Shown: one piece after another, positions 157 to 13,652 of the stretch
Layout: the number at the start of each line of letters is the position of its first letter
Position numbering within the stretch: position 1 is the first letter of the stretch
IMG/VR virus record: IMGVR_UViG_3300009509_000362
Coordinates: 1-22,654 of that record
Length of the DNA: 22,654 nucleotides
Origin: a virus
Direction: 5' to 3' (one strand)
The notes under the pieces: generated by a model
The model's input: only the letters and a program-made list of their open reading frames with translations
Told to the model about the DNA's origin: nothing
Database searches by the model: none
Program-made: the position numbers and the translations under genes

Positions 157-281
157 GGGGTAGTCACGGACGACGGGATGAAACCTGAAAGGTTTCACCC
201 CGTCGACCTAAAGGAACATCACCCTCGCTGCCATCAATCTTCGATTGAGGCAGCGAAGCGTGATGTTCCTTTGACTACCCC
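157..281 (+). ncRNA. Three-way-junction structured element (RNA candidate)
   Basis: Three helices fit together without conflict. P1 is 157-165 with 273-281, nine perfect pairs. P2 is 171-186 with 190-205, sixteen positions with one A-C mismatch and a GAA loop. P3 is 210-222 with 260-272, thirteen perfect pairs, continuing through a small internal loop into 226-232 with 249-255 and 234-239 with 243-248, capped by TTC. P3 and P1 abut on the 3' side with no unpaired base; the other linkers are 5 and 4 bases. No ORF here looks real. The strand is assigned by the direction of the genes; the inverted repeats alone would allow either strand, or a DNA cruciform. Phi29-type phages encode a three-way-junction packaging RNA near a genome end, but equating the two is speculation. 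Confidence 0.6.
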
Positions 282-381: not shown

Positions 382-640
382 TCCGGCACATGCTTACGCC
401 ATGGTGGTGGGGGCCGCTGCTTGCGGAGCCTTGAGTTGCGTCGGACTGGCTCGCTTCTGGTCCGACCGGCGCTCAAGGGCTTGGTGCGCCGTGGTGGCGG
501 TTAGGGATCTTGGCTGGACATGGGGGTTCCTGTTTCGTATGATGTATGCGAAGGACGTTGCATCCTCTGACAGTATCGCCCTCCCAGGCGTCTGTCAATC
601 GCAGGCTGGACATCTGCGAGTGAGGCTCCTTCGTATGTAG
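341..640 (+). CDS. Doubtful small membrane-protein ORF
   Basis: An open frame of 99 codons from GTG at 341, directly after an in-frame TAA; an internal ATG at 401 would give 79 residues. The first 40 or so residues are hydrophobic and could form one or two membrane segments, followed by a basic stretch (RFWSDRRSRAW). Against it, the 5' part is translated from the GT-rich tract, which yields Val, Trp, Cys and Gly by composition alone. Neither start has a visible ribosome-binding site, and the strong promoter at 515-543 lies inside the frame. I do not recognise a family. A holin-like protein is conceivable, but I consider this more likely non-coding. Confidence 0.2.
   Translation: MWVVCGVLCGWVWFPAHAYAMVVGAAACGALSCVGLARFWSDRRSRAWCAVVAVRDLGWTWGFLFRMMYAKDVASSDSIALPGVCQSQAGHLRVRLLRM
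515..543 (+). promoter_or_regulatory. Sigma70-type promoter for the structural operon
   Basis: TGGACA at 515-520 (5 of 6 to the -35 consensus) and TATGAT at 538-543 (5 of 6 to the -10 consensus) are separated by exactly 17 bases. Transcription would start near 550 and read into the terminase gene with a leader of about 130 bases. It is the best promoter match I found, and it sits where the long co-directional operon needs one. Confidence 0.6.
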
Positions 641-2783: not shown

Positions 2784-4615
2784 GCACACGACTTGACGAC
2801 ACGTATGTCCTTCAACGGGTCGACGACCTCAACCGCTCCAACCAAGACCAGTTCCGAGACAAGTGGCGTATCCGTTCCATCATGGATGGCGGCCCTGACG
2901 GTGTGATCGCTGTCATGCTGTGGGACAAGGGTGGCCGTGACCGTATCTCACGGGACGACGCCCTCCGCATGATCGGCACCGACCTGCCCACAGTGAACCT
3001 TGCACTGTCCGGACTTGACCGTCTCGGGCAGATGGTGGGACGGCTCGCCACATTGAAACCGCCGAAAGCGGACGACCTGACACAGCGGGAACGGAACCAG
3101 CGCCGCATCGAAATCCTCGACATGTGGGATGCGGAACAGAAACTCGAACTGATGATGCCACAGCTGGCACGGTGGCTCCCCGGCTACTCGTTCGGGTTCA
3201 TGTCGATGACGCAAGGCAAGAACAGTTTCGGTGAGTGGTATCCGAAGCTGCATCTGCGTGACTCGTATGACGTGTCCCCCGGCTACTTCGGTGCCGACCA
3301 GTCACCCAAGGATGTTGTCGCCAACAGGGTCGTCCCGCTGTACCAGCTCAAACACATCTACCCGGAGCTGCCATGGGACACCTACGAGTCGGACCTGCGG
3401 GTGAAGCGGCCACAGAACCGTATCGCTGCGATGGACCTGCGCAACTCGTCAGGGGCTTCCGTCGCCTATGACGGTCAACGCACATGGGAGGGGCCACGTA
3501 CCGGGATCCGCATCGCTGAATACTCATGCGAGTCGGGCCGGTACGTTGTCATCCCCGAGTTCGACACCTGCGTCGAGTACATCCCGAACATGTTGGATCA
3601 GCTGCCGTTCGTGTTCGGCAAGCGGATCTCGTTCAACAAACTCCAGTCGGCCTACTCGCAGATCATCGGGCTGATGTCGATGCACGCCAAGTTGAACATC
3701 TTGGGGATGATCGCCTCCGAAGACTCGACGTTCCGTGAGACGAACATCATCGGCGAGCTCGTCGGTGAGGAGTATCAGCGGGGCCGCAAGGGCATCAACA
3801 TGTTCCTCCCCGGCACCCGCATCGAACGGCTGTCAGGGGATCAGGCGCAACAGGTGTGGGCGCAGATCGACCGTATCGAACGGCAGCTCCGCATCGGGAT
3901 GAACTACGACGTTCAGCAGGACGGTACGTCACCCAACTCGTTCGCCACTGGCCAGGGAATGCGTGAACTCCAAACAGCGTCGGCGAACAACGTCCGTGAG
4001 TATCAGACCGTTCTGCGGTACATGATGCAGGACGCCGACTCGAAACGTCTCGAGTTTGCAGAGAAGGCGTACCAGTCGCAGAAGCGCAGCTACTGGGATA
4101 TGCGTGGCGACAAGAAGACGTACCGTGCCTCCACGGCCATCAACGGCGACTACCGGACCCGCCGTGTGTACGGGGCGATGGCAACATTCGACGACCAGCT
4201 CAAGATCGTCGTCGGCCTTCAGCTGCTCCAAGGTCAGGCAATCGACGTCGAAACGTTGCAAGAGAACATCGACGGGCTCGAGGATCTGCCTTTGATCAAC
4301 GAGCGGATCGCACGGCGTCAGGCCAAGGATGTGCTGTTCGAACGGCTGCGGATGCGTGCCGAGCAGGATCCACGGGCCGACGCTGCCTTGACCCAGATCA
4401 TCCTGAACCCCCGTGACGAAGCTAAGATCCTTGTTGAATACTTCGCACCCGAGGTCGAGGAAGGGGAGGAGGGGCCGCCGATGGCGTTCCCACCGCAACC
4501 ACCCGGACTCGCTATGGGCGAAGGTGGCGCACCACCGGAGGCGTTCTCCACCGTGCTGTCGAGGCTGGAAGGCGATCAGGCCAACCTCGGAGTCCAGACC
4601 GTCGGAGCTTTGTAA
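2780..4615 (+). CDS. Portal protein
   Basis: Predicted dodecameric ring at the head vertex through which DNA is packaged and ejected. I assign it from its place directly after the terminase, its 611-residue length and its alpha-helix-rich, portal-like composition. The central region (about residues 275-450) has long helices and an NSFATGQGMRELQ segment of the kind seen in the portal wing/stem. The C-terminal 55 or so residues are acidic then Pro/Gly-rich (EVEEGEEGPP), probably disordered. The GTG start at 2780 overlaps the terminase TGA, with a GAGG at 2769-2772. No catalytic motif is expected. I cannot name the portal subfamily from the sequence alone. Confidence 0.85.
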   Translation: MSTRLDDTYVLQRVDDLNRSNQDQFRDKWRIRSIMDGGPDGVIAVMLWDKGGRDRISRDDALRMIGTDLPTVNLALSGLDRLGQMVGRLATLKPPKADDLTQRERNQRRIEILDMWDAEQKLELMMPQLARWLPGYSFGFMSMTQGKNSFGEWYPKLHLRDSYDVSPGYFGADQSPKDVVANRVVPLYQLKHIYPELPWDTYESDLRVKRPQNRIAAMDLRNSSGASVAYDGQRTWEGPRTGIRIAEYSCESGRYVVIPEFDTCVEYIPNMLDQLPFVFGKRISFNKLQSAYSQIIGLMSMHAKLNILGMIASEDSTFRETNIIGELVGEEYQRGRKGINMFLPGTRIERLSGDQAQQVWAQIDRIERQLRIGMNYDVQQDGTSPNSFATGQGMRELQTASANNVREYQTVLRYMMQDADSKRLEFAEKAYQSQKRSYWDMRGDKKTYRASTAINGDYRTRRVYGAMATFDDQLKIVVGLQLLQGQAIDVETLQENIDGLEDLPLINERIARRQAKDVLFERLRMRAEQDPRADAALTQIILNPRDEAKILVEYFAPEVEEGEEGPPMAFPPQPPGLAMGEGGAPPEAFSTVLSRLEGDQANLGVQTVGAL

Positions 4616-5308: not shown

Positions 5309-5724
5309 TGGCACGGGGCGGCTACCGGAAGCCAGCCAGCCCTGCACCAGTGTCCCTCCCACAGTCCGGTGCCCGCACCGACGGTGGGGCAGGGCAGCCC
5401 ATCCGACTCGCATCGAATCAGGCATACGGTGAACGGCAAGCGATGGAAGCAGCCCAAGCGGCTGCGCCGATGGCAGCCGGTGAGGGAACCCCGACGGGGG
5501 GTTCCTCTCCGGCTCCGTCCGGAACGCCGACTACCCCCGCTGCGATGATGGCCGGTCTCGGCCCGATGCCCAACGTGTTCGCACCGACGAACCGGCCCAA
5601 CGAACCACTGGGCCCGTCCGGTCCCAACCCGGCCACACTCGGTGAGATCCCCGCCGATGCGATCCTGCGTCGTCTCTACGCCGCCTACCCGAACCCTTAC
5701 ATCGCTCGACTGCTCAAGCCATGA
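5308..5724 (+). CDS. MARGGY-type low-complexity phage protein
   Basis: A 138-residue protein rich in Pro, Ala and Gly, beginning MARGGYRKP and containing SGARTDGGAGQPIR. I recognise this N-terminal pattern from many phage structural operons, where such proteins sit near the portal and lack an assigned function. Most of the chain looks disordered; only the last 25 residues (ADAILRRLYAAYPNPYIARL) look helical. It starts one base inside the previous gene and ends in an ATGA overlap with the giant gene, so translation is probably coupled. A strong hairpin (5477-5512) lies within the coding sequence. A linker or scaffold-like role is possible but unsupported. Confidence 0.75.
   Translation: MARGGYRKPASPAPVSLPQSGARTDGGAGQPIRLASNQAYGERQAMEAAQAAAPMAAGEGTPTGGSSPAPSGTPTTPAAMMAGLGPMPNVFAPTNRPNEPLGPSGPNPATLGEIPADAILRRLYAAYPNPYIARLLKP
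5477..5512 (+). repeat. Intragenic hairpin in the MARGGY-type gene
   Basis: Arms 5477-5492 and 5498-5512 pair over 14 positions (4 + 3 + 7, with one T-T mismatch and one bulged G) around gacgg. It lies in the Gly/Pro/Ser-rich part, about 210 bases upstream of the giant gene. It could be a by-product of glycine and proline codons, or a polarity or mRNA-processing element. Confidence 0.4.
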
Positions 5725-8700
5725 CCGAATACGATCCGGTCTACCAAGCCAACGTAGACGGAGCCAACGCAAGGGTCCGCTGGCAGCAGACACAGTGGGC
5801 GTCGTTGGACCGGCAGCTCACACCGATGGCGAAGAACGCTGCCGGGTTGGCGAAGATGGCACCGGAGATGTCCCCCGAGCTCGTCACTGCCTTCGTCCTC
5901 GCTGGTCAGAAAGCTGAGGAACTGCCGACCCCTGCCTTCTCCGAGATCCGACGCAAGGATGCCATTGCGAACGACTCGAACTGGTGGGGCATCGAACCGA
6001 TGATCCGTGGCGGGATGACCGTGTTCGAGTCGCTGTGGCAGTCCAAGCAGCGCAACGAACGATTCGTCCTCGGCTTGCTCCAAGGCCAGGGCATCGGCGA
6101 GTCATGGGACAACGCCGGTACCACTTTGATCGACGAAGTGATCCGCACTGCCCGCAAAGGCGAACCGATCAACCTCGGTTCCGGTTGGACGCAGCGGTCG
6201 ACACTGCCGCAGAACCAGCCGGGATATCAGGAAGCCCTCGGCTACTGGTTGAAGAAAGGTGTGCCGCTGGGTGAAGCGCAGCGTCGTGCCACGGAAACGT
6301 CGGTGAACCGTTACGGCAAACCGCTGTCCCAATACGTGGACTTGGTGAACGAGTTCGCCACAGGTCTCAACGTCAAGAACGCTGAAGGGCAGACCATCAC
6401 TGTGCCATGGTCGTTGGGTCGTGGCATCGCCCAATATGTGGCACCGGCTGAAACCCAATGGTTCGACACCGTGTCGGGCATGATCGACGGTTACAACCGG
6501 ATCTTCGGTGACCCGATCGACGTGCCGCTGCGTGAACTGTGGATATGGCGCAGGAACCGGAACATGTGGGTGCCGGCAGGCGGCGACGAAATGTTCCGTG
6601 AAGTGTGGGACAACGCCATGCATGAGATCAACGTGCTGCTGTCACCGGAGAACATCGGCATCGACCTCAAGACGTTGGGCATCGACGAATCCGAGAACCT
6701 CATGGGATTGCTTCCCGGCCCGCAAACCCTTGACAAGATCGGCCACACATGGCCGCAAGACCCTGAGAAGATGAACCCGATCCTCCTGTTCCGTGAGAGG
6801 ATCACCCGTTACCTGAAACGGCTCGACAATCCTGAGCTTGGTGACCGTGTCCCTGATGGCCGCTACGTCGACGTGTTCGACACTGACGGCAACAAGGTCG
6901 ACGAAGTGCTCGAAACGTTTGAGCATCGTGTCCGGTCAGAGTTCGGTGACGACCCTGAGATCCTTGACGCCATCCCCGAATGGCAGCGTGGCAAGCTCAC
7001 CTCACCGTATGCGCAGGCGTATCTCGACGAGGGGATGACGAACGACGACCTGCGAGACCTCATCTACTACCAGGGTGGTGAACGTGTCCTCGAGGACTAC
7101 ATCCTTGAACATGAGCTCATCCACGGTGAGAAGCAGATCCAACGGGTGTCCGAGTATCGGAGCCTCGGTGAGCGTCTCCGTCAGATCCGGCAGAATGTCG
7201 CCCCCAATGCCGGTGATCTTCGCAGCCGCATCCTCGACGATCTCATGCCTGACATTGAACGGGTGCGGGCCACATGCGATCCCGTGTCCAAGGGTGCCTG
7301 TGTCGAAGTGTCCACGAAGCTGGCTGATGAGATCCCCGGTCTCCGTGTCAACAAGGGCTCCTACGGTGGGATGCAGCACGCATGGAACGAGCTGCCCGAC
7401 GGGACGATCATCGACGCCACCGCTGACCAGTTCGGTGGCGACCCGATCAGGGTGATCAAACCGTCCGACCCGGACTACGCCAAGTATTCGCAGGTGACGT
7501 CGATCGACGAGGCGATCTGGGATGCGATGCCTGACTTCATCCGTGGCCACACGTCGAACGCTTTCGCTGTCGAGACGGGTGGGTGGACACGTGACCTTGG
7601 CAAGCTCGAGGACGCCCTGACCGACACGGACCTTGAGATCATCGACACGCTCATCGGCGATGCACGTCGCTACACCGACGAGGGATTCGCCGAGTCCCGT
7701 GCGATGCAAGCCGAGTACGACGCATGGATGGGAGCTTCCAGACCGTCAAGCGAGATCGACTACAACTGGTGGGCTGATCTTCTTGACGATGCAGCAGAGC
7801 GGGCACAACGGGCTATTGCCGGTGGTCGTCCTGAGGGTATGACGATAGAGGAATGGCGTGAACTTGGTATGTACGTCAACTCTCTCCGTGAGGCTGCTCG
7901 TGGTGCCCGAAACGGCCAGAGAGTCGTGATCCCCGCTGTCTTTGCCAACGATCTGGAAATGGTCAAGGATCCATGGAAGATCGCACGTCAGATCGCTGGT
8001 GATGAAACACTTGGTAGGCCTGGGCCGATGCCCCACGACGGCGATTTCCGTCCATGGGAGTTCCACGACGACTGGGATCCCCCTGTCAACCTCACACCAG
8101 AGCAGGCCGCTTATCTCGGGATCGACCCCGACGATATGCAGTATCTGAGCTACACGGAGGTCGTGGGTCGCATCAAGAGCAAGGCCCGTGAACGTGTCCT
8201 CAAGCTGAAGGGCAAGATCGAGTCAGGCGATCTCGGGTCGATGAGTGCCACCCCTGAGGACTGGGACAAATGGGCCGATGAGGTACGGCAGGCGTCGAAG
8301 GAGAACCGTCCCAGAGACTACGCCCCGTTCGAGCAGCCAGAGATCTCCGGTCAGCAACAGCTCAACCTGCCCGACAGGTATGTGCCGCTGCGGGCACGTC
8401 AACGCCCGTATTGGGAGGAACTTGACAGGCGAGTTGCTGCCGGTGACAAGTTGTCCTTGGAGGACATCCGTGGCGTTGGTGGAATGCTGGAGACGAAGTA
8501 TCTGCCCTACGTCGACGACATCCAAGGGCTCAATAGTGAAGCTGCACGTGTCCTCTACCAGCAAGGCGAGTTTGGGGATCGGATCACCCAGCTCGAAGCG
8601 GTGCTTGAAGGGGCTGAAGGCCGTTTGGAAAGTGCGTTGGACCGGGCAGCTCAAGCCCGTGGTGCCATCAGCGTCGACGACTATGCACGCATCCTGTCTG

Positions 8701-11700
8701 ACCGTGCCCAGCGGAACCTTGCGCTGATCGACAAGATGTTGGAAGGTGGCGGTCAAATCGACTACTGGATGGTGTACCGCCTCCAGATCGAGGCGCACAT
8801 TTATCAGGCAATCGCCGATTACAGCCACGACTTTGAACAGCTGATGGCATTCGACAGTTCGTTCCTTAGTGACCCGGAGTTCGCCAAAGCGGCTGGTGTA
8901 GTGAAGATTGCCGATGATGGCAGCGTCGTCCCTGACTACGAGACGCTGAGGGCAATCCTGTCGACCCCTGAAGATGTGGACGTTTCCCGCTTCGACGATG
9001 TGGTGGCGATCCTCGACGACATTCTCGGTATGCCTGAGGAGTACGAGATTGCGGGCCGCCAGTATGACGAAGCGATACGAACATGGAACGAGACGGTGAT
9101 GGACAACGCCGACTTCGAATCGCTTCAACAGGCCCGCAGGGAACGGGAACTCCAGATTTACGGCGTGTTCGATGAGGTGAGCGAAGCAGAGGGCATCGCA
9201 CGAGAAGCAACAGCCGAGTACCTTGCTCAACTCCAAGCCCGCATTGACGACTTGCTTGGCCGTGCGATGGGTGGGACCGATGAGGGCGGCGACCTGGCCC
9301 GTTCCTCCGGCGATTTCGCTTCCGAGTTCTCCGACGTGTCAAACCAGCTTGACCGCATCAAATACGAGATCGAGTACGAAGCTGAACGTGAGGCGATCCG
9401 ACGGTTGAAGCGGGGCAAGCTGTCCACATCGGGGCTCCGTGAAAAGGTGTACAAGGAAGCTGGGATTGGCCGCTGGTGGAGGCCATGGTTGAAGACTCGC
9501 ACTGTGGACGACCTGTTGAACACGAAGCGTGGACGCAGGCTCATCGACTACACCACACGGAACAAGTCGATCTCGGACATCAGACGCCTGTACTCGCATC
9601 TGCCTGCCGGTGCGCAGAAGCGACTTGCCGAAACAGACGACCCGGCTGAGGTCGTCGAGATCATCCGACGTTATGCCGGTGGTGCCCGCATGCCGGATAT
9701 GCCGACGATGTCACGGACGCAACGGGCGGCTGACAAGTTCGAGACGTTCGCTGATGTACGTGAATACTCGCCTGTGGCACAAGGTGTACGCCGATGGGTT
9801 GCCCAGTCCGGTGACATGATCCTCGACCCGTTCCGTATCAAGGAGTCCATGGACGCTGCCGAGTCGTGGCTGTGGACGGTGGGTGCTGACCGTACCGAAG
9901 TGGATCGGCTTCTCACGAAGCTCGCCGGTGCCGAAGGCGATATGGGCAAACTCAACGAGGTGTGGGAGGAAATGCTCCAGTCTGCTGAGGCCCGCATCAG
10001 ACAGCTCGGCTACACGCAAGACGAGATCACGACGATCATGAGCGACATCGCCTCGAAGAACATCCAGGCCAAGCTCTACTTCGACAACCTTGCGGGACGG
10101 AACACGTTGCTGTACAACACGGGGAAGTGGACGGCGAGGGACGGGACGACGCTTGGTGTGATCTCCGGTCACCTCCCATCGGAGTTCTCCCACAACTTCA
10201 TCATCATGCCGAACATGCGCAACATGAGACGGGCAACGTCACGGGCACGGTCCACGGTGCAGAAGATGCGCCGGCACTATCCCGAATCGTGGTGGCGTGG
10301 TTCCACCGGACAGTTCACAGATCCTCTGGGTATCCATCCGAACCTGCTTGCCAAGCTGCTCGACCCGATGGCTGCGGCATGGCGCAACCTTGCCCTGCTC
10401 CGTGTCGGATGGCCGCTGCGTGTCATCCCCGAGGAGCTGATCAGGATGCAGGCTGCCGGTTACACAGACACGGTGCGTCATCCGTTCTCGTATCTGGCGT
10501 TGGTGTTCGGTGACACGAAGGGCCGCATCGGGATCATGGGTGACAACCTCGACGATGTGTTCACGGCCAAGCAGCTCGGCTCCGGTCAGATGGCAGTGGA
10601 CTGGACGAACACGATCAGGGGCACAGCGTGGGACGCTGCGAACGCTTCATGGGCGATCGTCCATATCGGGAACGTCGAGGAGTACAAGGTCGGGTTGGCA
10701 CGTGAGATCCTCGACCTGTGGGGTTCCGACGTGTCCCGCCATGTTGCCGGATACGGTGTCGATGAGACGTTCAACTGGTTGCGGAACACGAAGGAAGGTC
10801 AGCGTTACCTTGAGAACACGGTGAACTCGTCGACGACACGGTCGCATTGGCGGGCCACCGTTGTCGGTGATCTGTCCCCGACGGAGGAACTGGCCGACCA
10901 GTCGCTGCGGTCGGTGCTCCAGTCGATCGAAGCCCGCATCCACAAGAACACGGGCGGTCACTATGTGGCACGTCAGATCGACCCGCATACGACGATGCCT
11001 ACCGGCAAGTGGGTGGACGACTACGACTCGGTGTTGCCGTTGGATAGGTACGACGACTGGTCGATGCGGCAGCTGCGTGACGAACTGGCTCGCCGTGACA
11101 TCCTCCCGTTGGGCACTCCGATGGAGGAGCACCTGTGGGACATCAACCCGGCGTCCCCGGTCAATACGGGAATGCCAACGAGCTCGGACGAGATGATTGA
11201 CGCTTTGCTGCGTGACGACGGATTCGGTGCAGTCCTCGACGCCGACAACGACACGTTCTTCATCATCATGGAGGAAGGTGACGCCCGTATCCGTCAGATG
11301 ATCAACTCGGGTGAGCTCGACGGTACACGTCACCTGCATCCGGAGATGTCCAAGAAGCAGATGCGGGACTTCGAGAACAACATCGTCGGGCTGTACCAGG
11401 ATCAGCGGTATCTCCCTGAGACGGTGAAGTCCGCTGATGTTCGCCAGTCCCGCAATCTGTCACAGGTGTACGACTCGGTGACAGACGAGATCTTCAACGT
11501 GCTCATGGGTGTCCCGACCCGCAAACTGATCCGGTCACCGTTCGCACGGATGCGGTACACCGAGGAGGTTGCACGGGGCTACATCTTCTCCACACCCGAG
11601 ACACGTGCCGAGATCCTGCGATGGGTTGACGAGTCTGGGATGCGTGTCCAGTTCGACGAGTTTCTGGAAAAGGCGATGCGGGACATCAACCTCCGTGCGT

Positions 11701-13652
11701 TGCCCGACGAGGTGACCGACGCCTTCCAGAACATGAAGGAGATCGACACGATGGCGAAGGCCCGTGCTGTCGAGGACACACGGGAGCTGTTCTATGACCT
11801 GTCCAAGCGTGGCAACTGGGCTGACGCCACACGGCTGATCTTCCCGTTCGCTGATGCATGGTGGGAGGTCATCTCCCGCTGGGCGAAGTTCCTCGACCCG
11901 ACGGGTCTGGTGCCGGGACGTCACGCCGGTCAGGTGTTCGAGGCGATGCGAAACTCCCGCAAAGCCGCAGTGATCATCAACGGGGCACGCACCAACGGTT
12001 ACTTCTCCGAGGACAAGTACGGCAACGAGGTGTTCAACTGGCCAGGGTTCGGCTTGTTGGCCGGTCATCTGCCATGGGGTGAGCAGAACCCGCAAGGGTC
12101 CGGTGTTGGCATGTCGTCGACGACGACTCTCGAATCGTTGATGTTCATCGACCCGAACATCAGGGGCATCTTGGCTCCCGGTACCGGCCCTATCGCACAG
12201 CTTGCGGGGTCGGTTGTCCAACCGCTGTTGCCGTCGCAGCTCCAACCGATGTTCCAAGACGCCATCTTCGGCGAGTTTGACCCGCCGCCGAACAAGAACC
12301 CGTTGGACTTGATCATGATCTTTGCCCCGACGTGGGCGAAGCGCATCTCGGAAGCGGCGTTCCCGAACTACCGGCAGGTGTTCGCTGACACGATCACTGG
12401 CCTGTACGCCTCCACATATCTGTCGAACAACCCGATGTGGGGGGATCTGTCACAACGGTCGTCGGATGAGCGGATGCGATGGGCACAATCGCAGGGAAGC
12501 CAGCTTGCCATCCTCCGCATCTTCGATGCGATCATTTCACCGTCCCAGCCGACGTATGAGCCCGAAGTGCTGCTCGAAGCCGTACAGGGGCCGCAGGGTG
12601 CGACGTGGGTCAAGTATCAGGCGTTGATGGACGAGTACCGCACGGCTCGTCGGTTCTACCAGAACGACATTGCAGCCGGCATGTACATGTTGGAGAACTT
12701 CGGTGTCGACTTCCTCGACCTCATCCCTGAAACGATTCAGGTGTACCAGCGTCCGACCCGCACCGAGGAGTACCTGTATCTCGAGGACAATGCGTATCTG
12801 CGGGCAGCGGCACCGTACACGCTGATGGCCTGGGTGCCTGCCGGTGACGACGACGATTTCTCCTACTACGTGTACCAACAGCAGTTCTTTGAGGAGGACG
12901 AGACGGGGACGGTGGCCCGTCAGGTGATGACACCGGAGATGGCCGCTGCGTACCACAACTCGGCACTTGGGTTCCGTGTGTGGAACAACGTGCAGGATCA
13001 GTACAACCAGCAGTTGGAGCGGGCACGTGTCCTGTATGCCAACGAGCCGAATCGGTTGCGTCAGTTCCGTAACCAGCTCGACGATTGGAAGGCACAGCAG
13101 CGTGATGCCATCCATACCCGTTACTGGGCGTGGGGGTTCGATCGTGAGATTCCCGGTCGGGTGACACGGCCCACATATCGGACACTGTTCGACGAGATGG
13201 CTCGGCTCCCCGAAATGTCCGAGATGCGGGAGCTCAATCCGCAGCTCGCTGATTGGATCACGGTGACGACCGGCTTGTGGCGTCACGCTGAGGAACAGTC
13301 GATGGCGAAGGGCTACGACATTGATTGGTGGCGCACGTCAGAGCCTCAGACCAGCACGGAACCGGAACAGTGGCGGCAATGGTTCTTCACATCGGTTGAG
13401 GATGCAACCAAGAAACTGACCGATCCTGTCGCACGGCAAGGCGCACAGTGGTACATGAGCTATGTCCTGTCCCGACTTCTCAACGGTGTGGAATGGGACG
13501 ACTCGTTCTGGTTCGAGTTGGAACAGGCACCGATACCGGGAACAGAAGGTGCCTATACCTACGATCAGATAAACGACTTCACGAACTTGCCGGGACATCA
13601 GGCTCCGATTCCTGAATGGCAGCAGCGGTACGAACAGGAGATCAACCCATGA
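5721..13652 (+). CDS. Giant multidomain internal-virion/ejection protein candidate
   Basis: One uninterrupted frame of 2643 residues, over a third of the window. No signal peptide is visible, and the composition is acidic, Trp/Tyr/Arg-rich and mostly helical. Visible parts: HELIH at 464-468, a zincin-like motif with no third ligand identified; a papain/transglutaminase-like core with C527 (KGACVE), H553 (QHAW) and D565 (TIIDATADQF); heptad-like helical stretches around 870-1250; a possible SAP-like segment at about 1779-1805 (DWSMRQLRDELARRDILPLG). The segment ATRLIFPFADAWWEV resembles conserved parts of other giant phage virion proteins. Location between portal and capsid, next to a lysin, suggests a protein packaged in the head and ejected, like T7 gp15/gp16 or N4 virion proteins. 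No polymerase motif was found. The start overlaps the previous stop (ATGA) and has no ribosome-binding site of its own. Confidence 0.9.
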   Translation: MTEYDPVYQANVDGANARVRWQQTQWASLDRQLTPMAKNAAGLAKMAPEMSPELVTAFVLAGQKAEELPTPAFSEIRRKDAIANDSNWWGIEPMIRGGMTVFESLWQSKQRNERFVLGLLQGQGIGESWDNAGTTLIDEVIRTARKGEPINLGSGWTQRSTLPQNQPGYQEALGYWLKKGVPLGEAQRRATETSVNRYGKPLSQYVDLVNEFATGLNVKNAEGQTITVPWSLGRGIAQYVAPAETQWFDTVSGMIDGYNRIFGDPIDVPLRELWIWRRNRNMWVPAGGDEMFREVWDNAMHEINVLLSPENIGIDLKTLGIDESENLMGLLPGPQTLDKIGHTWPQDPEKMNPILLFRERITRYLKRLDNPELGDRVPDGRYVDVFDTDGNKVDEVLETFEHRVRSEFGDDPEILDAIPEWQRGKLTSPYAQAYLDEGMTNDDLRDLIYYQGGERVLEDYILEHELIHGEKQIQRVSEYRSLGERLRQIRQNVAPNAGDLRSRILDDLMPDIERVRATCDPVSKGACVEVSTKLADEIPGLRVNKGSYGGMQHAWNELPDGTIIDATADQFGGDPIRVIKPSDPDYAKYSQVTSIDEAIWDAMPDFIRGHTSNAFAVETGGWTRDLGKLEDALTDTDLEIIDTLIGDARRYTDEGFAESRAMQAEYDAWMGASRPSSEIDYNWWADLLDDAAERAQRAIAGGRPEGMTIEEWRELGMYVNSLREAARGARNGQRVVIPAVFANDLEMVKDPWKIARQIAGDETLGRPGPMPHDGDFRPWEFHDDWDPPVNLTPEQAAYLGIDPDDMQYLSYTEVVGRIKSKARERVLKLKGKIESGDLGSMSATPEDWDKWADEVRQASKENRPRDYAPFEQPEISGQQQLNLPDRYVPLRARQRPYWEELDRRVAAGDKLSLEDIRGVGGMLETKYLPYVDDIQGLNSEAARVLYQQGEFGDRITQLEAVLEGAEGRLESALDRAAQARGAISVDDYARILSDRAQRNLALIDKMLEGGGQIDYWMVYRLQIEAHIYQAIADYSHDFEQLMAFDSSFLSDPEFAKAAGVVKIADDGSVVPDYETLRAILSTPEDVDVSRFDDVVAILDDILGMPEEYEIAGRQYDEAIRTWNETVMDNADFESLQQARRERELQIYGVFDEVSEAEGIAREATAEYLAQLQARIDDLLGRAMGGTDEGGDLARSSGDFASEFSDVSNQLDRIKYEIEYEAEREAIRRLKRGKLSTSGLREKVYKEAGIGRWWRPWLKTRTVDDLLNTKRGRRLIDYTTRNKSISDIRRLYSHLPAGAQKRLAETDDPAEVVEIIRRYAGGARMPDMPTMSRTQRAADKFETFADVREYSPVAQGVRRWVAQSGDMILDPFRIKESMDAAESWLWTVGADRTEVDRLLTKLAGAEGDMGKLNEVWEEMLQSAEARIRQLGYTQDEITTIMSDIASKNIQAKLYFDNLAGRNTLLYNTGKWTARDGTTLGVISGHLPSEFSHNFIIMPNMRNMRRATSRARSTVQKMRRHYPESWWRGSTGQFTDPLGIHPNLLAKLLDPMAAAWRNLALLRVGWPLRVIPEELIRMQAAGYTDTVRHPFSYLALVFGDTKGRIGIMGDNLDDVFTAKQLGSGQMAVDWTNTIRGTAWDAANASWAIVHIGNVEEYKVGLAREILDLWGSDVSRHVAGYGVDETFNWLRNTKEGQRYLENTVNSSTTRSHWRATVVGDLSPTEELADQSLRSVLQSIEARIHKNTGGHYVARQIDPHTTMPTGKWVDDYDSVLPLDRYDDWSMRQLRDELARRDILPLGTPMEEHLWDINPASPVNTGMPTSSDEMIDALLRDDGFGAVLDADNDTFFIIMEEGDARIRQMINSGELDGTRHLHPEMSKKQMRDFENNIVGLYQDQRYLPETVKSADVRQSRNLSQVYDSVTDEIFNVLMGVPTRKLIRSPFARMRYTEEVARGYIFSTPETRAEILRWVDESGMRVQFDEFLEKAMRDINLRALPDEVTDAFQNMKEIDTMAKARAVEDTRELFYDLSKRGNWADATRLIFPFADAWWEVISRWAKFLDPTGLVPGRHAGQVFEAMRNSRKAAVIINGARTNGYFSEDKYGNEVFNWPGFGLLAGHLPWGEQNPQGSGVGMSSTTTLESLMFIDPNIRGILAPGTGPIAQLAGSVVQPLLPSQLQPMFQDAIFGEFDPPPNKNPLDLIMIFAPTWAKRISEAAFPNYRQVFADTITGLYASTYLSNNPMWGDLSQRSSDERMRWAQSQGSQLAILRIFDAIISPSQPTYEPEVLLEAVQGPQGATWVKYQALMDEYRTARRFYQNDIAAGMYMLENFGVDFLDLIPETIQVYQRPTRTEEYLYLEDNAYLRAAAPYTLMAWVPAGDDDDFSYYVYQQQFFEEDETGTVARQVMTPEMAAAYHNSALGFRVWNNVQDQYNQQLERARVLYANEPNRLRQFRNQLDDWKAQQRDAIHTRYWAWGFDREIPGRVTRPTYRTLFDEMARLPEMSEMRELNPQLADWITVTTGLWRHAEEQSMAKGYDIDWWRTSEPQTSTEPEQWRQWFFTSVEDATKKLTDPVARQGAQWYMSYVLSRLLNGVEWDDSFWFELEQAPIPGTEGAYTYDQINDFTNLPGHQAPIPEWQQRYEQEINP

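Follow-up and report, generated by a model that had tools for sequence, protein, structure and literature searches.

The region ahead of the terminase gene in this phage raises the question of what a three-way junction of almost complete pairing is for, and whether it acts as an RNA or as a structure of the DNA itself. The DNA analysed here, hereafter the window, is a whole virus contig of 22,654 bp (IMGVR_UViG_3300009509_000362), in which the junction at 157-281 lies upstream of the gene for the large terminase subunit (TerL; 681-2783, + strand), a 700-aa protein matching PHROG 38. A DNA-level inverted repeat rather than an RNA gene is the best explanation of 157-281, because both strands are equally exceptional in folding, the pairs are almost only Watson-Crick, and no Rfam match was found; strand-specific RNAs normally have more wobble pairs. 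The chances are about even that the element is, more specifically, a fold-back structure of the DNA at a genome end (concatemer junction) and/or an origin, as has been inferred for T7.

The three-way junction at 157-281

The junction is closed by a stem in which GGGGTAGTCA (157-166) is the exact 10-bp complement of TGACTACCCC (272-281), and both arms abut this stem. Arm A (168-208) is a hairpin of 2+7+8 bp with the 3-nt loop GAA (187-189), and arm B (210-272) has about 13+8+6 bp and a 3-nt loop at 240-242, reading TTC on the + strand and GAA on the minus strand. In total, 54 Watson-Crick pairs leave 3 unpaired junction bases, which are 167 and 209-210 in the DNA fold. Both strands fold with RNA as well as DNA parameters: the RNA energies are -83.8 kcal/mol (+) and -93.2 kcal/mol (-), with z-scores of -15.7 and -14.6 and none of 200 dinucleotide shuffles as good, and the DNA parameters give -51.2 (+) and -55.1 (-), with z about -14. 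The minus strand folds better, and its two G-U pairs correspond to A-C mismatches on the + strand, the fold of which holds no G-U pair. Among all 125-nt folds of the 22.6-kb contig, 157-281 ranks first (the best grid window reached -81, against a mean of -40.8 and an sd of 6.7). Moreover, an exact 10-bp upstream partner for the dyad that supplies the 3' strand of the closing stem appeared within 250 nt in 0 of 500 shuffles under Watson-Crick pairing, and in 0.6% when wobble pairs were allowed. The three-way junction is real and far beyond chance. An initial annotation of this DNA had described three compatible helices of 9, 16 and 13+7+6 positions, meeting almost without unpaired bases and unlikely to arise by chance; RNA folding, one of the checks that it proposed, recovered the junction with its closing stem and two arms, and the count of unpaired bases, the z-scores and the shuffles all bear out that description.

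The annotation was silent on three further hairpins in 1-100, as well as on the closing-stem 3' strand being half of a conserved dyad. These hairpins are GCCATGCGCC/GGCGCATGGC at 21-47, GCCCCC/GGGGGC at 55-70 and GTACCCC/GGGGTAC at 83-99, and 157-281 is the last and strongest member of the window's hairpin block, which ends at the dyad. The loops at 62-64, 89-91, 187-189 and 240-242 read GNA on one strand or its complement, three of them closed by C-G, a type of DNA mini-hairpin with unusual stability; GNA-type loops are absent from the hairpins of the related locus L035. The GNA/TNC loops, together with a 2643-aa ORF in the structural region (5721-13652), prompted consideration of hairpin promoters for an N4-style virion RNA polymerase, which were dropped, the protein having neither a polymerase match nor a T7-like motif. 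This ORF matched no family or solved structure apart from a weak YunG-like stretch, and Streptomyces phage Immanuel3 (NC_048686) has a giant ORF (1648 aa) in the same position without detectable similarity. A coding role for 157-281 was also rejected, as the ORFs crossing it have no PHROG match.

The conserved dyad and the hairpins to its left

No near DNA relative of the window was found among named phages; 43 related IMG/VR loci were recovered by TerL alignment. A non-coding block of about 130 bp (265-399), G/T-rich on the + strand, is common to the window, L030, L035 and L022/L024, with homology detected by pairwise BLAST in L030 and L022/L024, and in L035 by way of L030 and L022, in phages with a TerL just about 40-45% identical to that of the window. 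The block begins with a 20-bp dyad, TTGACTACCCCTATGTAAAC (271-290), the left half of which forms the 3' strand of the closing stem. A profile search with the dyad re-found the phages from which the profile was built, and a search for further contigs with the pattern returned only those already known; the independent support is the pairwise BLAST.

Clear homology ends at the dyad, and on the left side of it the hairpins differ from phage to phage. The contig of L024 (G009), whose 55-bp exact end overlap indicates a probably complete, circularised genome (about 47.5 kb), has about ten hairpins in the 400 bp left of the dyad, L035 has six in about 190 bp, and L054 has a strong fold adjoining a degenerate dyad. 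The z-scores of the hairpin-rich DNA directly left of the dyad are -11.8/-7.9 in G009, -3.5/-3.7 in L035 and -3.1/-5.3 in L054, and a closed junction with a dyad half as 3' strand was significant in the window only. By this sequence comparison, a hairpin-rich block recurs at the dyad in the relatives that reach that far, and the window's particular junction does not. Covariation, also proposed by the annotation, is unusable as a test because the hairpins of the relatives are not homologous to those of the window.

A closing stem shared with other viruses was considered and rejected, as the pattern GGGGTAGTCA-N80..109-TGACTACCCC gave 7 matches that fold quite differently and were put down to chance or to unrelated inverted repeats. 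In the large unrelated virus contigs L009, L011, L013, L014 and L015, inverted repeats ending in GGGGTAGTCA/TGACTACCCC, about 100 bp apart, resemble small transposon-like elements. Long-range TAGTC/GACTA closing pairs in L035 have a high pair probability and are not significant against shuffles. A mobile element was set aside, arm B having no copy in viral contigs and the region none in phages or plasmids, and a genome scan with TerL for a prophage form gave distant matches only. As for other arrays, G009 carries a second one (L094, 3100-3370) between divergent ORF groups, adjoined at the start of the rightward group by ACCCGTATG, as in the dyad, inverted. In L054, a 600-bp inverted duplication (3303-3905 and 3992-4555, about 70% identical), both copies of which fold strongly, lies directly left of the dyad-like site.

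Between dyad and terminase, a leader block is kept in the window (385-505), L030 (113-290), L035 (1843-1990) and L025 (268-399), with TAGTCAGTCGTTTCGGGCTACCAG in the latter three. Its outer stem reads CCTCAAG/CTTGAGG in those three and CCTTGAG/CTCAAGG in the window, which may be a compensatory change. A conserved leader RNA at 385-505 was rejected, the strand-biased stability being due to G/T-rich composition (z -0.6 on the + strand).

Strand composition at the dyad

On the + strand, the G+T content is 0.35-0.43 (A/C-rich) in the 200-400 nt left of the dyad and 0.69-0.74 in the first 200 nt to its right in the window, G009, L030 and L035, with a weaker rise in L054 (0.60 rising to 0.69); this G/T-richness decays over roughly 1-2 kb. 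Compared over 250-nt windows, the switch at the dyad is the largest of each contig readable on both sides, falling at 310 in the window, at 1729 in L035, at 4627 in L054 and, in G009, 13 nt to the right of where the dyad begins, and the maximum switch in Immanuel3, lambda, T7 and phiC31 is 0.16-0.17. An A/C-to-G/T switch of 0.3-0.4 upstream of TerL was also found in L026 (near 4158), L032 (near 568) and L043 (near 4395), which lack the dyad motif, and many other relatives, several dyad-less ones among them, have no switch upstream of TerL.

The ORFs left of the dyad in G009 run toward the site, and gene direction therefore does not explain the switch. On either side of the dyad, the strand that leads away from it in the 5' to 3' direction is keto-rich, a polarity that would fit an origin or divergent transcription; DNA ends with exposed 3' overhangs would produce the reverse. 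The genome-wide cumulative keto skew of G009 has no extreme at the dyad site, gene-strand effects dominating there, and phages need not show one. As a consequence, genome-wide skew was dropped as proof of an origin; the local switch in strand composition found at the dyad, which is looked for at origins, suggests the locus as a replication origin.

Divergent transcription from the dyad would also yield the composition switch, and a transcribed structured RNA that works after folding, being either a minus-strand ncRNA starting near the dyad or a + strand regulatory RNA, would suit the extreme RNA z-scores and the better minus-strand fold, with wobble pairs where the + strand has mismatches. However, such an RNA is rather unlikely given the lack of an Rfam match, the near absence of G-U pairs and a structure that as such is not conserved, and a scan of 1-1000 found no sigma-70-like promoter ahead of 157-281 on either strand, the only one (515-543, + strand; a consensus match only) lying downstream of the element and ahead of the terminase. 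For the processed regulatory RNA proposed by the initial annotation, no positive evidence was found.

Tandem transcription terminators or insulators, separating an upstream operon from the terminase operon, are unlikely as well. In G009 a co-directional ORF group does end where the array begins, with the terminase on the other side, and the second array of that genome sits between divergent groups, but the hairpins of 1-281 have no following T run, the scan of 1-1000 for intrinsic terminators (a G+C hairpin and then a T run, rho-dependent and T-less types lying outside it) found none in 1-281, and neither the three-way junction nor the composition switch would be needed. Improbable to the same degree are non-functional palindromes generated by template-switch mutation in often single-stranded non-coding DNA, for example close to an origin. 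Template switching at quasi-palindromes is an established process (PMC3820800), and it would account for hairpins that are nearly perfect, non-coding, wholly different between relatives and placed where the strand signature suggests single-strand exposure. Independent switches, however, are not expected to give an exact 10-bp closing stem that joins two arms, leaves 3 unpaired bases and ends in a conserved dyad.

Genome ends and known systems

Immanuel3, a distant relative, has the gene order of the window, with homology detectable in TerL, portal, and the M23 region with its neighbours, and its TerL starts at 679, against 681 in the window; its genome carries an exact 275-bp direct terminal repeat (1-275). 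Among the ten TerL-holding contigs of 15 kb or more (loci from the alignment plus the window), 7 end within 1.3 kb upstream of TerL, a preference with a rough binomial P of 2e-7, or 3e-6 with L023/L024 counted once, for an assumed genome size that is a guess; breaks caused by hairpins could lead to the same pattern. Four of the loci (L022, L023, L024 and L030) begin exactly 8 nt to the left of the dyad. The window contig does not include its right end, hence no terminal repeat is readable there.

The window phage shares its major-capsid family with SU10, a phage with a terminal repeat of 193 bp. In T7 infection, a hairpin that includes the terminal repeat has been noted, and phiEco32-like phages may, according to the SU10 paper, use an unknown mechanism (PMC4281155). 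In T7 the strongest fold near the join sits inside the terminal repeat; the SU10 and Immanuel3 ends have no exceptional fold, and the strongest one near the join is outside the repeat. The window has the strong hairpin of a T7-type end in the form of its strongest contig fold, at 157-281, the placement of which within a terminal repeat is conjectural.

The fold, the hairpin-rich blocks of the relatives, the homologous dyad block, the composition switch and the Immanuel3 terminal repeat at this locus are read from sequence; from these we infer that the window's hairpin block may itself be (part of) a terminal repeat or origin, and that a fold-back step may occur. The DNA would be opened or nicked during replication or maturation, and the outward-running strand (minus, left of the dyad) would fold back into the three-way junction, which could then provide an end for priming or fold-back, in the manner inferred for the T7 terminal repeat. 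Alternatively, the junction might mark a site for terminase or an initiator bound at the dyad. The greatest doubt attaches to the role of the block, which may be that of a terminal repeat, of an origin or of both, and to any use of the fold itself. Among the three options of the initial annotation, a cis-acting packaging or replication site is the best supported, by the conserved dyad block, the composition switch and the Immanuel3 terminal repeat.

More tentatively, and with less than even confidence, the locus could represent an undescribed genome-end/origin class of uncultured, probably actinobacterial phages, in which a conserved 20-bp dyad at an A/C-to-G/T flip and a fast-diverging array of near-perfect hairpins, here condensed into a three-way junction, would form a DNA signal that acts through its structure and not its sequence, either in priming or in cutting by the terminase. 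Repeat duplication in phages with direct terminal repeats is not a settled question, and a conserved dyad with a strong fold-back next to it, at a sharp strand signature, would offer a concrete site for hairpin-primed end duplication or origin firing. The sharp switch upstream of the terminase might also be a simple marker for such sites in metagenomic phages.

With regard to known systems, the likeness to the forked-hairpin attP of CTXphi lies in inverted half-sites enclosing a forked hairpin beside an XerD-like half-site, and contigs begin where the would-be XerC arm has its outer edge. In the dyad, the right half (TATGTmAAC) is similar to the XerD arm of dif, that of F. alni being CACGCCGATAATGCACATTATGTCAAGT (PMC3025954). 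A Xer/dif-like site for site-specific recombination is nevertheless very improbable: the left half is unlike the XerC arm, the spacing is not constant from phage to phage (a difference of 1 nt), folding fails to restore the full core site, and eight related records hold no tyrosine or large serine recombinase, although use of the host Xer would still be possible. Furthermore, the window phage, in contrast to CTXphi, is a double-stranded tailed phage, with no integration evidence and no prophage found to carry the site.

A phi29-like packaging RNA (pRNA), also among the initial options, can practically be dismissed. The three-way junction is roughly of pRNA size and near a likely genome end, but no Rfam match reaches the gathering threshold (those at E up to 1 are at chance level), the two strands fold about equally well, G-U pairs are nearly absent, and the relatives carry unrelated hairpins without the closed junction; the terminase is a full-size large subunit and not the small gp16-type ATPase, as the annotation had rightly observed. 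A Streptomyces-telomere or parvovirus-like terminus was likewise rejected, the likeness being visual.

For the preferred reading of a DNA fold-back structure at a genome end or origin, the left end of Immanuel3 is like that of the window in being non-coding and A/C-rich (G+T 0.31 in the first 150 bp) with TerL close behind, and differs in having no dyad block, no comparable three-way junction and no sharp composition switch. With G4-type primase sites and phage or plasmid origins, the window has in common that a single exposed strand carries several hairpins next to an origin-like composition switch, initiation at the window locus being conjectural. Compared with the T7 concatemer junction, the window's three-way junction is far stronger, adjoins a conserved dyad and has the terminase gene right beside it, and no T7-type RNA polymerase was seen in the window contig, for which a terminal repeat is putative. 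Like the T7 junction, however, the window has a strong fold inside or beside the end region, at what is likely a terminal-repeat locus.
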